This document shows, one piece after another, positions 9,891 through 13,480 of a DNA stretch of 25,595 nucleotides. How positions within the stretch are numbered: position 1 is the first letter of the stretch; each line of letters starts with the position of its first letter. This stretch comes from a virus. Both the position numbers and the translations under genes were made by a program. A model generated the notes under the pieces. The model saw nothing but the letters and a program-made list of their open reading frames with translations. It searched no databases and was not told where the DNA came from. The stretch covers positions 1 through 25,595 of IMG/VR virus record IMGVR_UViG_3300028376_000033; one strand, written 5' to 3'.

Positions 9891-10244
9891 GTGAACGTCA
9901 CGCATATGAATGAGGGCCAGAAGGTCGCCTATTCCTTGGATGGAAGCATCCTGACCATCGGGGAAAGCGTCGTTTTGGATCTGGATGAAGAACAGGAAGA
10001 CGTGGAGCGCGCGGTCAGCATCTTCGCCGGGGATGACGGCACGCTATCCCAAGACGGCCACAACTACGCCGCCACAATCATCCTGCCGCCCCGCCGCTAC
10101 GCCGATGAAGAGGTGGATGAAATCATGGACGGCGAAGAGGTTGTTCAAATCGTGCCTGTCGCTCAACCGCTTCAGGTCGCCGCCGTAACCCTTCAGCTGT
10201 GGTCAATTGGGACGGCCCATGCAGAATCTGAAAACGAGGAGTAA
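9891..10244 (+). CDS. Small acidic protein between fibre and DGR target, function unknown
   Basis: 117 residues. The GTG at 9891 is chosen because TAAGGGGG lies seven bases upstream; an ATG five codons later is an alternative. The protein is acidic (DLDEEQEDVE, ADEEVDEIMDGEEV) with a strand-rich start and no membrane segment. It lies between the tail fibre and the variable protein, both spaced by only a few bases. This suggests a linker or assembly factor for the fibre-adhesin complex. I do not recognise a family. Confidence 0.6.
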   Translation: MNVTHMNEGQKVAYSLDGSILTIGESVVLDLDEEQEDVERAVSIFAGDDGTLSQDGHNYAATIILPPRRYADEEVDEIMDGEEVVQIVPVAQPLQVAAVTLQLWSIGTAHAESENEE

Positions 10245-10249
10245 CCACA

Positions 10250-11329
10250 ATGGCCATCACAATTTCCACGCCCGACGCGCTGCGCCAATCGGTCGAAGCG
10301 GCATCAGGGGGCGTCAACACCGTCCTTTACGACGCAAAGGGCTATCCTTCGGTGATGTGCATCATCCCGCGCTTCAATATCGAAGACATCGACCCGGCAA
10401 TGGGGGCGGGAACGCACCCCGCATTCATCGTCAACGGGGTGCCCAAGTCGGAAATTTTCGTGGGCAAGTTTCTGGCGCACATCCACGACAACCATGCCCT
10501 GTCGCTACCGGGCCAAGACCCATCGGCCAGCATCAATTTCGACACGGCGGACACGCGGTGCACCGCGAAAGGTCCGGGCTGGCATATGATGACCAACGCC
10601 GAATGGTCGGCGGTCGCTCTGTGGTGCTGGAAGAACGGGTTCATGCCGCGCGGCAATACCCAGTATGGCCGGGACCACGTGCAGCAGTACGAAACAGGGC
10701 GGCGGCAAGACGCTGGTGCGCCGGGGGATGCCAGCGGCACGGCACGAACGCTGACCGGCTCCGGCCCGGCCAGCTGGTTCCATGACAACAGCCCGGCAGG
10801 TATTGCGGATCTGACCGGGAACGTCTGGGAATGGCAGCGCGGTCTTCGATTGGTTGATGGAGAAATCCAAATCATTCCCGACAACGATGCGGCCGCGACC
10901 GATGCCGACCACTCCGACACCAGCCCGCTTTGGAAAGCCGTCATGCAAAACGGCACACTGGTCGCGCCCGGCACAGCAGACAGCCTGAAGTGGAACGCAA
11001 CCGGGGCGGACGGCACCGGAAACCCGGAGCTTGACACTGCCGTCACCAGTCAATCGGACGGGTCCACGTCCGCATCGGCCATGTACAAGGATGTCGCTGC
11101 TGCGGCAGGTGTCACGGTGCCGGAAATGCTGAATCTTCTGGGGCTTTTCCCGCACGATGCCACCATTGATCGGGGCCGCTTCTACATGCGCAACGAGGGC
11201 GAGCGTCTGCCGAGCCGTGGGGGCAACTGGGACGTCGGCAGCGGTGCTGGCGTGTTCGCCCGCAACCTGCACAACCCGCGTTCGAGCGTGAGCTCGAGCG
11301 TCGGCTTCCGGCCCGCTTTCGTAATCTGA
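10250..11329 (+). CDS. DGR variable protein: C-type-lectin/FGE-like adhesin
   Basis: 359 residues, with a GAGGAG site upstream. It belongs to the DGR target proteins with a formylglycine-generating-enzyme-like C-type lectin fold, such as Bordetella phage Mtd and its relatives. Seen: a central region with MTNAEWSAVALW and the FGE hallmark GNVWEW (190-195), and a C-terminus ending SRGGNWD... to GFRPAFVI, where residues 318-356 are encoded by the variable repeat. Residues at template adenines that now differ are D328, V329, G330, G332, H341, S346, S348, S349, S350 and V351; in this fold such positions form the ligand-binding face. It follows the tail fibre, so it is probably the receptor-binding tip. 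Stop codon and VR end lie within 13 bases. Confidence 0.93.
   Translation: MAITISTPDALRQSVEAASGGVNTVLYDAKGYPSVMCIIPRFNIEDIDPAMGAGTHPAFIVNGVPKSEIFVGKFLAHIHDNHALSLPGQDPSASINFDTADTRCTAKGPGWHMMTNAEWSAVALWCWKNGFMPRGNTQYGRDHVQQYETGRRQDAGAPGDASGTARTLTGSGPASWFHDNSPAGIADLTGNVWEWQRGLRLVDGEIQIIPDNDAAATDADHSDTSPLWKAVMQNGTLVAPGTADSLKWNATGADGTGNPELDTAVTSQSDGSTSASAMYKDVAAAAGVTVPEMLNLLGLFPHDATIDRGRFYMRNEGERLPSRGGNWDVGSGAGVFARNLHNPRSSVSSSVGFRPAFVI
11201..11317 (+). repeat. DGR variable repeat (VR)
   Basis: This 117-base stretch aligns without gaps to the template repeat 558 bases downstream. It matches at 103 positions. Of the 14 differences, 12 fall on adenines of the template (nine A to G, two A to T, one A to C) and two are T to G. 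The 3' part (GGCTTCCGGCCCGCT) is identical in both copies, as expected for the region where cDNA homing starts (IMH). All changes leave the reading frame intact. Confidence 0.96.
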
Positions 11330-11353
11330 AATCGGACCACCTGATTTCTGTTG

Positions 11354-11375
11354 GGTGCGGGCGATAGCCCGCGCC
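11354..11375. promoter_or_regulatory. DGR target-recognition hairpin/cruciform next to VR
   Basis: A perfect 6-bp stem (GCGGGC with GCCCGC) closes the four-base loop GATA; across one T-G mismatch the stem extends to nine pairs. It begins 24 bases past the VR stop codon and is absent after the TR. Bordetella phage BPP-1 and other DGRs carry a hairpin of this kind, with GRNA loops, just past the VR, needed for efficient homing. GATA fits GRNA. A weak terminator is a second reading, since CTTGCTTTT follows, but the T tract is broken. Confidence 0.75.
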
Positions 11376-11403
11376 TTGCTTTTGACTGCCGAAGGAGTTT
11401 GCG

Positions 11404-11760
11404 GTGGAAGACTTAAAAATCCGCCGCAAGTGCGAAGACATGATTGCATACGGCTATGTCGTGTTGCGGCAATTTCCCAAATCGGAACGTCACGTTTTGA
11501 GTCAGGAAATCCGGAACACGATGTGGTCGCTTCTTCGGTTAATTATCATCTGCAATAAGCGGTACTTCAAAAAGTCCACAATGCAGGATTTGGATGCGGA
11601 GCTTGATTTGCTGCGCAGTCAAATCCGGATGGCCCAAAAACTCGGATACCTTTCGTTTAAAAGCTATGAGGTATGGAGCCGTCATCTTGATGAAATTGGC
11701 CGCATGATTGGCGGTTGGTTTAAAAGCCTTCAGAAAGGGGGCGCAGGTAATGTGGCTTGA
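11404..11760 (+). CDS. avd: DGR accessory variability determinant (Avd)
   Basis: 118 residues from a GTG at 11404, after GAAGGAG. Avd is a small barrel-shaped pentamer of four-helix bundles that binds the RT and the template RNA; it is required for cDNA synthesis in BPP-1. Seen: four amphipathic helices, roughly 4-27, 31-55, 59-85 and 87-112, with a basic surface (KIRRKCED, KRYFKKS, KSYEVWSR) and the MIAYGYVVLRQFPKSER start typical of the family. The last codon group and stop overlap the start of the TR. Base use is more AT-rich than in the neighbouring tail genes (ATT, TTA and AAA codons), suggesting separate ancestry of the cassette. Confidence 0.88.
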   Translation: MEDLKIRRKCEDMIAYGYVVLRQFPKSERHVLSQEIRNTMWSLLRLIIICNKRYFKKSTMQDLDAELDLLRSQIRMAQKLGYLSFKSYEVWSRHLDEIGRMIGGWFKSLQKGGAGNVA

Positions 11761-11899
11761 GCGTCTGCCGATCCGTGGGGGCAACTGGAACAACGACAGC
11801 AATGCTGGCGTGTTCGCCCTCAACCTGAACAACCCGCGTTCGAACGTGAACACGAACATCGGCTTCCGGCCCGCTCTCGGGAAATGCCAGAAGGTGTAG
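11750..11899 (+). CDS. Possible small reading frame through the TR
   Basis: An ATG inside the last codons of avd opens a 49-residue frame which translates the TR in the same frame as the VR (MWLERLPIRGGNW..., ending ...FRPALGKCQKV). AAAGGGGG lies nine bases upstream. Translation would give an unmutated copy of the lectin C-terminus. It may simply reflect that the TR descends from a coding repeat. Low confidence as a real gene. Confidence 0.2.
   Translation: MWLERLPIRGGNWNNDSNAGVFALNLNNPRSNVNTNIGFRPALGKCQKV
11759..11875 (+). repeat. DGR template repeat (TR)
   Basis: The donor copy for mutagenic homing. It begins at the avd stop codon and holds 26 adenines, 20 of them in ten AAC/AAT codons (11783, 11789, 11792, 11801, 11822, 11828, 11831, 11843, 11849, 11855). 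Adenine mutation of AAY codons can give about fifteen amino acids and never a stop, the usual design of DGR templates. Seven of these ten codons differ in the present VR. After 11875 the two copies diverge (CTCGGG against TTCGTA). Confidence 0.96.
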
Positions 11900-12041: not shown

Positions 12042-13112
12042 ATGGCAAAAACCTACACCGGCCTGTTCGAGCAGTTCACAACATTCGAAGCGCTTCACCG
12101 GGCATATGGTCGGGTCGTAAAGGGGCGCAGACACCAGCTGGATGTCATACGCTTTGAAGCCGATCTGGAATCCAACCTGATAGACATTCAGAACAGCCTG
12201 CTGTGGAAGACTTACCGCACCGGACCCTACCGGAATTTCAAAGTGTTCGAGCCAAAGGAACGGGATATTTCCGCGCTTCCGATAAAGGACAGGATAGTCC
12301 AGCATGCGCTAGTCGAGACCATTGACCCGATTTGGTCGCCGCGCTTCATTCATGATACCTACGCCTGCCGACCGGGAAAGGGTGCCCACGCTGGCGCGGA
12401 CCGCGCGCAGATGTTCCTGCGGGACGCCTTGCGCGAAAGCGAAGTCATCTACGTGCTGAAGGCGGATATTTCGAAGTACTTTCCTTCGATCTGCCATGAC
12501 GTTCTGAAGCGCCTGCTGCGCCGCCGCATAGCCTGCAAGGACACCTTGCGGGTCATCGACAACATCATTGATAGCTCCTTGGAGCCGGGCGACCCCATGC
12601 CGCGCGGTATACCGATTGGCAACCTGACATCGCAACTGTTTGCGAACATCTACCTTCATGAACTGGATGAATTCGTGAAGTTCGACCTGCGCGAAGGGCG
12701 CTACCTGCGATATATGGATGACTTCGCAGTGGTCGGTAGTGACAAAGACCATCTGCACCGGGTCCGCCGCGACATTGAAGACTTCCTGCACGCAAGGCTT
12801 GGGCTGCGGTGCAATAGCAAAACCCAAGTTTTTCCGGTGTCGAAGGCGAACGGTCGAGCGCTGGATTTCTTGGGGTATCGGATATGGCCGACGCACCGGA
12901 AAATCCGAAAGGACAGCGCCAGCCGCATGCGCCGCAAGATGAAGCGCATGGCGCGCCTTTACCACGAAGGGAAGATGACCCTGAAAGAGGTCGATCAGGT
13001 CATCATGAGTTGGATCGGCCATGCGGGGCACGCAAACACCTACCGGCTTCGAACCCGCGTTTTGGGAGATGTGCCGTTCATCCCGCCACCCATGCACCTG
13101 CGAAAGCGGTGA
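12042..13112 (+). CDS. DGR reverse transcriptase
   Basis: 356 residues. It copies TR RNA into cDNA with errors at adenines. Seen: the finger region (LLWKTYRTGPYRNFKVFEPKE.. then a DRIVQHALV motif at 83-91), palm motif with Asp142 (LKADISKYFPSI), the RT motif IGNLTSQ at 192-198, and the catalytic YMDD box at 224-227 followed by FAVVG. The SQ ending of the GxxxSQ motif (instead of SP, as in retroviral and group II intron RTs) is the DGR hallmark. The C-terminal thumb is basic (SRMRRKMKRMARLYHEGK). There is no maturase or endonuclease domain. The ATG has only a weak ribosome site (GGAAAAAAAC), so expression may be low. Confidence 0.95.
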   Translation: MAKTYTGLFEQFTTFEALHRAYGRVVKGRRHQLDVIRFEADLESNLIDIQNSLLWKTYRTGPYRNFKVFEPKERDISALPIKDRIVQHALVETIDPIWSPRFIHDTYACRPGKGAHAGADRAQMFLRDALRESEVIYVLKADISKYFPSICHDVLKRLLRRRIACKDTLRVIDNIIDSSLEPGDPMPRGIPIGNLTSQLFANIYLHELDEFVKFDLREGRYLRYMDDFAVVGSDKDHLHRVRRDIEDFLHARLGLRCNSKTQVFPVSKANGRALDFLGYRIWPTHRKIRKDSASRMRRKMKRMARLYHEGKMTLKEVDQVIMSWIGHAGHANTYRLRTRVLGDVPFIPPPMHLRKR

Positions 13113-13135: not shown

Positions 13136-13480
13136 ATGTACGAATATAAAGCCTGCGTTGTCGATGTGTATGACGCGGACACCATCACGGTCGATGTGGA
13201 TCTGGGATTTAACGCTTGGCTGCGCGGGGTGAAGGTTCGACTGACCGGCATAGATGCCCCTGAAGTTCGCGGCGAAGAACGTCCCGATGGGCTGGTTTCG
13301 CGCGATTGGCTGCGGGCTGAAATCCTTGGCCAAGACATCGTGATGAAGACCACGAAAGATGGCACCGGCAAGGGAAAATATGGCCGATGGCTGGCCGAAC
13401 TTTTCCGCGCCGATGGCGACGTTATCAGCATCAATCAAGAGCTGGTGACCAAAGGCTTGGCGGCACCGGCAAGCTATTGA
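13136..13480 (+). CDS. Staphylococcal-nuclease-like (SNase/TNase) protein
   Basis: 114 residues from the ATG at 13136, which follows AAAGGAAAG; the frame is open farther upstream only inside the RT gene. The SNase OB-fold is recognisable: YDADTITVDVDL, then VRLTGIDAPE with Arg35, Asp40 and Glu43, and GKYGRWLAELF with Arg84. These correspond to R35, D40, E43 and R87 of S. aureus nuclease, so the active site looks intact. There is no signal peptide, so it acts in the cytoplasm. It lies 23 bases after the RT and before a terminator, so it may be carried with the DGR, or be an independent phage nuclease. Confidence 0.85.
   Translation: MYEYKACVVDVYDADTITVDVDLGFNAWLRGVKVRLTGIDAPEVRGEERPDGLVSRDWLRAEILGQDIVMKTTKDGTGKGKYGRWLAELFRADGDVISINQELVTKGLAAPASY

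Follow-up and report, generated by a model that had tools for sequence, protein, structure and literature searches.

The window analyzed here, a 25.6 kb virus fragment from IMG/VR taken over its whole length, almost certainly carries a complete and probably functional diversity-generating retroelement (DGR) of a phage. The element is a further, ordinary member of an already known class. The sequence features that characterize DGRs were found together: the reverse transcriptase (RT) motifs, Avd, a target with a lectin fold, the TR and VR repeats, a putative IMH/IMH*-type marker, and a hairpin. The components are as follows.

10250..11329, plus strand: target gene, coding for a 359-amino-acid variable protein with an FGE-sulfatase/C-type-lectin fold; VR lies at its 3′ end
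11201..11317 (homology to 11321), plus strand: VR, the variable repeat, a direct repeat of TR
11318, plus strand: putative IMH/IMH*-type marker, a T in VR facing a C in TR (11876)
11354..11375, plus strand: hairpin/cruciform 3′ of VR with a GRNA loop (GCGGGC-GATA-GCCCGC; perfect core 11357-11372)
11404..11760, plus strand: avd, accessory variability determinant, 118 amino acids (Pfam bAvd, E = 8e-34)
11759..11875 (homology to 11879), plus strand: TR, the template repeat, a repeat of VR that starts inside the avd stop codon
11874..12024, plus strand: RT-14 structured RNA, the DGR spacer region between TR and RT (Rfam RF02921, 50.6 bits against a gathering score of 48.1)
12042..13112, plus strand: DGR reverse transcriptase, 356 amino acids (Pfam RVT_1; PHROG 1423, E = 4e-143)

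The target protein scored above the cut-off of the Pfam FGE-sulfatase family and matched PHROG 2889 (E = 6e-146), and the avd product matched the PHROG described as "Avd protein of DGR" (E = 1.6e-44) and the Avd of Bordetella phage BPP-1 (25% identity, E = 3e-7). The RT translation carries the YMDD catalytic box and the region-4 TSQ motif. Its best match in the PDB was 8ub7 (E = 3e-67), whose RT has 328 amino acids, like BPP-1 brt. VR ends 12 bases short of the end of the target open reading frame. No second VR was found in the 25.6 kb record, in which the TR/VR match occurs only at these two copies.

VR (11201-11317) and TR (11759-11875) align over 117 bases without gaps at a spacing of 558. 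Although TR is composed of 26 A, 39 C, 33 G, and 19 T, the 14 differences from TR to VR comprise nine A>G, two A>T, one A>C, and two T>G, and the hypergeometric probability that at least 12 of the 14 fall on adenines is 8.8e-8. The two T>G changes are located at 11214 (I322S) and 11262 (L338R). Four more bases can be added to the alignment, which then covers 121 bases and gains a 15th difference (C>T at 11876/11318). Seven of the 10 AAY codons in TR are changed in VR. A first-pass annotation of the window had already described the gapless 117-base repeats, the placement of 12 of the 14 changes on the 26 template adenines, and the seven altered AAY codons, and our recount reproduced all of these figures exactly. 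It had also pointed out that no stop codon had appeared. VR is indeed devoid of stop codons, as are the VRs of 93 relatives, but in the window this observation is uninformative: adenine substitution cannot turn any codon of TR into a stop, and the lack of stops is thus no evidence for or against selection.

A single genome is a snapshot shaped by selection; two near-identical phages with one template and two variable repeats constitute a clean natural experiment. Such a pair is formed by the window and L120 (IMGVR_UViG_3300031393_000030), a 10.7 kb metagenome contig that shares 99.5% identity with the window across 7.8 kb. While the TRs of both are identical, the VRs differ at 14 of 117 bases (12%), as compared with 24 differences in the other 7.68 kb (0.31%, i.e., 99.7% identity; P = 2e-16). 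The rate of difference in VR is thus 38 times that of the background. Eleven of the 14 differences are located at a template A and the other three at a template T. The turnover of VR, far faster than that of the rest of the sequence while TR stays fixed, fits the prediction of mutagenic retrohoming. About 25 further groups with an identical TR stretch also carry differing VRs. Since L120 shares its TR with the window but differs in VR, the DGR appears, judging from the sequences, to be active or to have been so recently.

That the element was active once and is now inactive, its VR being altered only by ordinary mutation and recombination, is an unlikely explanation. Activity in the sampled phage itself is deduced from sequence, which leaves some room for such a relic; however, avd, RT (with its YMDD and TSQ motifs), TR, the RT-14 RNA, and the hairpin are all intact, and VR has turned over since the window and L120 separated, a period in which the remaining sequence diverged by 0.3%. 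In addition, RT is identical in L003, a relative with the same TR and 99.85% identity to the window across 5.27 kb. Less probable still is that the window and L120 came to differ in VR through the swapping of VRs between phages by homologous recombination. Related phages do share the frame sequence, and the target gene upstream of VR also shows six differences in 951 bases between the two. Nonetheless, the VR differences are mostly found at the adenines of the phages' own, identical TR, and the remaining three at template T, whereas a donor with another TR would import fixed non-A differences. An exact frame search of IMG/VR found no further VR donors.

The confinement of changes to adenines was then compared across relatives of the RT taken from IMG/VR and GTDB genomes. 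The RT-proximal copy was used as the template, and the repeats were extended with equal penalties for every mismatch, so that the adenine result is not built into the alignments. This symmetric scoring replaced an earlier repeat search that penalized adenine mismatches lightly and so ran the risk of circularity. As a positive control, BPP-1 was run through the same pipeline, which returned its annotated TR and VR. In 97 unique TR/VR pairs, a tally that includes two loci of wrong orientation or noise (L102 and L118) omitted from the 93-pair set, the changed positions were 1111 of 2356 for A (47%), 60 of 3620 for C, 36 of 3242 for G, and 41 of 2033 for T. The first-pass annotation had suggested counting substitutions by template base in related pairs; the outcome was 47% at A against 1-2% at C, G, and T, and an even spread of mismatches over the four bases did not occur.

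These per-base rates refute an ordinary duplication, in which the 3′ end of the target gene would have been copied long ago and the two copies would have diverged by point mutation and selection. The two copies are alike in length and in frame, and selection could cluster changes in surface codons, but such a history accounts neither for the concentration of changes at A, in the window as well as in the relatives, nor for an L120 TR that is identical while its VR differs 38-fold above background, and we consider it highly improbable. Past mutagenic retrohoming from TR to VR, the activity that the first-pass annotation had proposed, is in turn strongly supported by the adenine confinement in the relatives and by the L120 comparison.

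The pooled adenine changes of the 97 unique pairs were distributed as A>G : A>T : A>C = 553:308:250 (50%, 28%, and 22%). The 9:2:1 ratio of the window departs significantly from equal thirds (P = 0.004), whereas against the pooled spectrum the difference is not significant (P = 0.07). The bias toward A>G that had been noticed in the window is thus real (nine of 12 adenine changes) but is not peculiar to this element, being general to DGRs. A>G was the commonest adenine change in a DGR survey (PMC3521204) and about half of the adenine changes in a DGR survey (PMC6642488), and BPP-1 bRT in E. coli misinserts mainly dC, which leads to A>G (59%) (PMC12875486). An adenine deaminase or a similar A-to-G editor acting on VR would agree with the nine A>G but is hardly credible, as half of the changes in the family are A>T or A>C, neither of which arises by deamination, and the template copy has remained unaltered.

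Some of the relatives deviate from the common arrangement. L031, L051, L053, and L094 have at least five interior non-adenine differences between TR and VR and may represent DGRs in decay or after recombination. In L076 (4897-4998 and 11796-11897) and in L155 (52-218), a single TR is accompanied by two VRs, with one match direct and the other inverted in L155. In L029, L090, L091, and L114, VR precedes TR by about 1.17 kb rather than about 0.55 kb, and an extra gene probably lies between the target and TR.

In the mechanism that we propose for the window, TR would be transcribed together with the RT-14 spacer RNA, and RT and Avd would make cDNA from it, with the start at TR position 117 or immediately 5′ of it. 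Misinsertion would take place mostly at template adenines, with dC as the favored wrong base. The cDNA would then take the place of VR in the 3′-terminal part of the C-type-lectin target gene, and two elements would act as target-site signals, namely the hairpin with its GRNA loop and the GC-rich 3′ end of VR. The outcome would be up to ~10^15 variants of a tail-associated protein.

The 3′ limit of the transferred segment can be approached through the columns that follow the 117 bases. At 11876/11318, a C in TR corresponds to a T in VR in 27 of the 28 relatives whose TR has C, and the next column shows C>T in 17 of 17 relatives. The RT-14 model starts at 11874 with the conserved letters CUCU. 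The fixed C/T just past the 117 bases probably marks the 3′ transfer boundary and may have an IMH/IMH* function. The simplest reading is that the RNA requires base 11876 in TR, that the target site or the coding frame requires base 11318 in VR, and that the cDNA starts before base 11876. The cDNA of BPP-1 reportedly begins within the GC-rich 3′ end of TR.

The hairpin starts 32-35 nt past VR and consists of a GATA loop on a perfect 6-bp stem that can be extended to 9 bp with one G-T pair. Its place (about 28-38 nt past VR) and its GRNA loop are conserved in most relatives, and the stem sequence varies with pairing kept. The loops found in the relatives were GATA (46), GGTA (14), GAAA (5), GACA (4), and GGAA (2). 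The window hairpin obeys the rule described for phage DGRs, a GC-rich stem with a GRNA loop 4-34 bp after VR (PMC3240598).

The overall arrangement resembles that of the BPP-1 DGR (mtd-avd-TR-brt). Both have the gene order target-avd-TR-RT with TR directly after avd, a VR at the 3′ end of a lectin-fold target, adenine-confined changes, and a GRNA-loop hairpin 3′ of VR (PMC3240598). The RT of the window and BPP-1 bRT share only 41% identity. The two elements differ in the length of the TR/VR homology (134 bases in BPP-1 and 117-121 in the window), in the presence of a 21-bp block in BPP-1 in the place of the short terminal marker, in the position of the hairpin (near the end of VR in BPP-1 and about 32-35 nt downstream in the window), and in the target, which is Mtd-like in BPP-1 and TaqVP-like in the window.

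The target protein matches PDB 5vf4, the DGR variable protein TaqVP of Thermus aquaticus, over its full length (E = 2.6e-109). Adenine changes in the window VR alter residues 328, 329, 330, 332, 341, 346, and 348-351, and the T>G changes alter residues 322 and 338. Across the 93 relatives, the residues that differ between TR and VR are 322, 326, 328, 329, 332, 339, 341, 342, 346, and 348-351. The first-pass annotation had taken residues 328-351 as the diversified set; these limits are too narrow on the left, the set starting at 322/326, and the set is discontinuous. The seven AAY-coded variable residues named for TaqVP (348, 351, 354, 361, 364, 368, and 370; PMC6328139) fall on target residues 326, 329, 332, 339, 342, 346, and 348, once the four additional residues of the PDB chain, deduced from D348/W349, are taken into account. 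The variable residues of TaqVP are solvent-exposed and form a putative ligand-binding site (PMC6328139). The Thermus aquaticus prophage DGR therefore shares with the window a target homologous over its full length and variable residues in the same alignment columns, and is unlike it in host, in residue repertoire, and in the number of variable residues, nine in TaqVP and about 13 in the window. The template permits about 2e15 protein variants. The cassette is flanked by baseplate/tail-fibre genes on one side and the tail-sheath gene on the other in a contractile-tailed phage that has an integrase at the right end. Gene neighborhood and fold suggest that the target is a tail-associated protein, presumably the receptor-binding tip.

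The pooled TR/VR pairs reveal the spectrum of errors that DGR reverse transcriptases make in nature. RTs grouped near L108 were considered as BPP-1-like and rejected, their identity to BPP-1 brt in tblastn being only 36%, and the second comparison set was built from relatives of BPP-1 brt itself. T>G was the commonest interior non-adenine change, accounting for 17 of 37 such changes in the 89 pairs of the window's set (loci L004-L118) and for 27 of 43 in the 52 pairs of the non-overlapping set of BPP-1 brt relatives (L177-L246), and both non-adenine changes in the window are T>G. Template T was changed at 15 per thousand in the window's set and 32 in the BPP-1 set, as compared with 2.4 and 3.5 for C and G together (P = 4e-8 and 4e-12, respectively; the sequences are not fully independent, and these P values, like those for AAC below, are optimistic). 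After events of the same local context were collapsed, T>G numbered 15 and 19 in the two sets versus 7 and 4 for T>C. Within groups of identical TR there were about 15 VR-specific T>G, the raw count of 20 including five double counts from nested groups, versus three T>C and no T>A.

Two other origins of the T>G class were considered. Relics of former template adenines were rejected, as T>A is nearly absent although equally expected, and T>G is VR-specific at one TR. Amino-acid selection was judged unlikely: T>G occurs alike at codon positions 1, 2, and 3 (6/483, 6/638, and 5/576), with synonymous changes included. Insertion of dC opposite U would explain T>G and would tie it to A>G through the same wrong base. 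T>C, instead, has been reported as preferred, in a survey set that was less strictly filtered (PMC6642488). The T>G class is possibly new.

The bases next to a template adenine also appear to influence its fate. At the second A of AAC, A>C accounted for 11% of changes in the window's set (93 relatives) versus 31% for AAT, and the contrast persisted when stratified by column (odds ratio 0.24, z = -4.1). Because AAC and AAT encode the same residues, it is less open to selection. The direction is opposite to that in the BPP-1 bRT assay, where NAC raises A>C (PMC12875486); unlike in BPP-1, this position shows no rise in A>C in the window's set. In the natural BPP-1 set, it amounted to 23%, not significantly above AAT (Fisher P = 1.0). 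The neighbor rule found for BPP-1 in the laboratory is thus not clearly visible in nature, and significance is reached only by the suppression seen in the window's set. We lean slightly toward the interpretation that the RTs of these lineages have a second, weaker error class at template U, seen nearly always as T>G, together with a neighbor rule unlike that of BPP-1, in which AAC suppresses A>C. If so, the specificity of the enzyme for adenine is not strict and its bias varies among lineages, which bears on the use of DGRs for protein diversification and on the prediction of reachable receptor-binding variants.

The window belongs to a phage or prophage of alphaproteobacteria, in a record without an assigned host. 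Among cultured relatives, the nearest is a prophage of Antarcticimicrobium sediminis (loci L083/L004), which contains the same cassette, with 95% protein identity in RT, 87% in the target, and about 84% DNA identity across 8.7 kb, but with TR and VR sequences that differ from those of the window. A staphylococcal-nuclease-like gene directly 3′ of RT (13139-13480) is probably an unrelated cargo gene; it was dropped as a DGR accessory because, apart from this phage, it is present just in L003 and in the prophage of Antarcticimicrobium. At 9891-10244, immediately 5′ of the target gene, there is a small conserved gene of unknown function (PHROG 8734) that could be a companion of the target protein.
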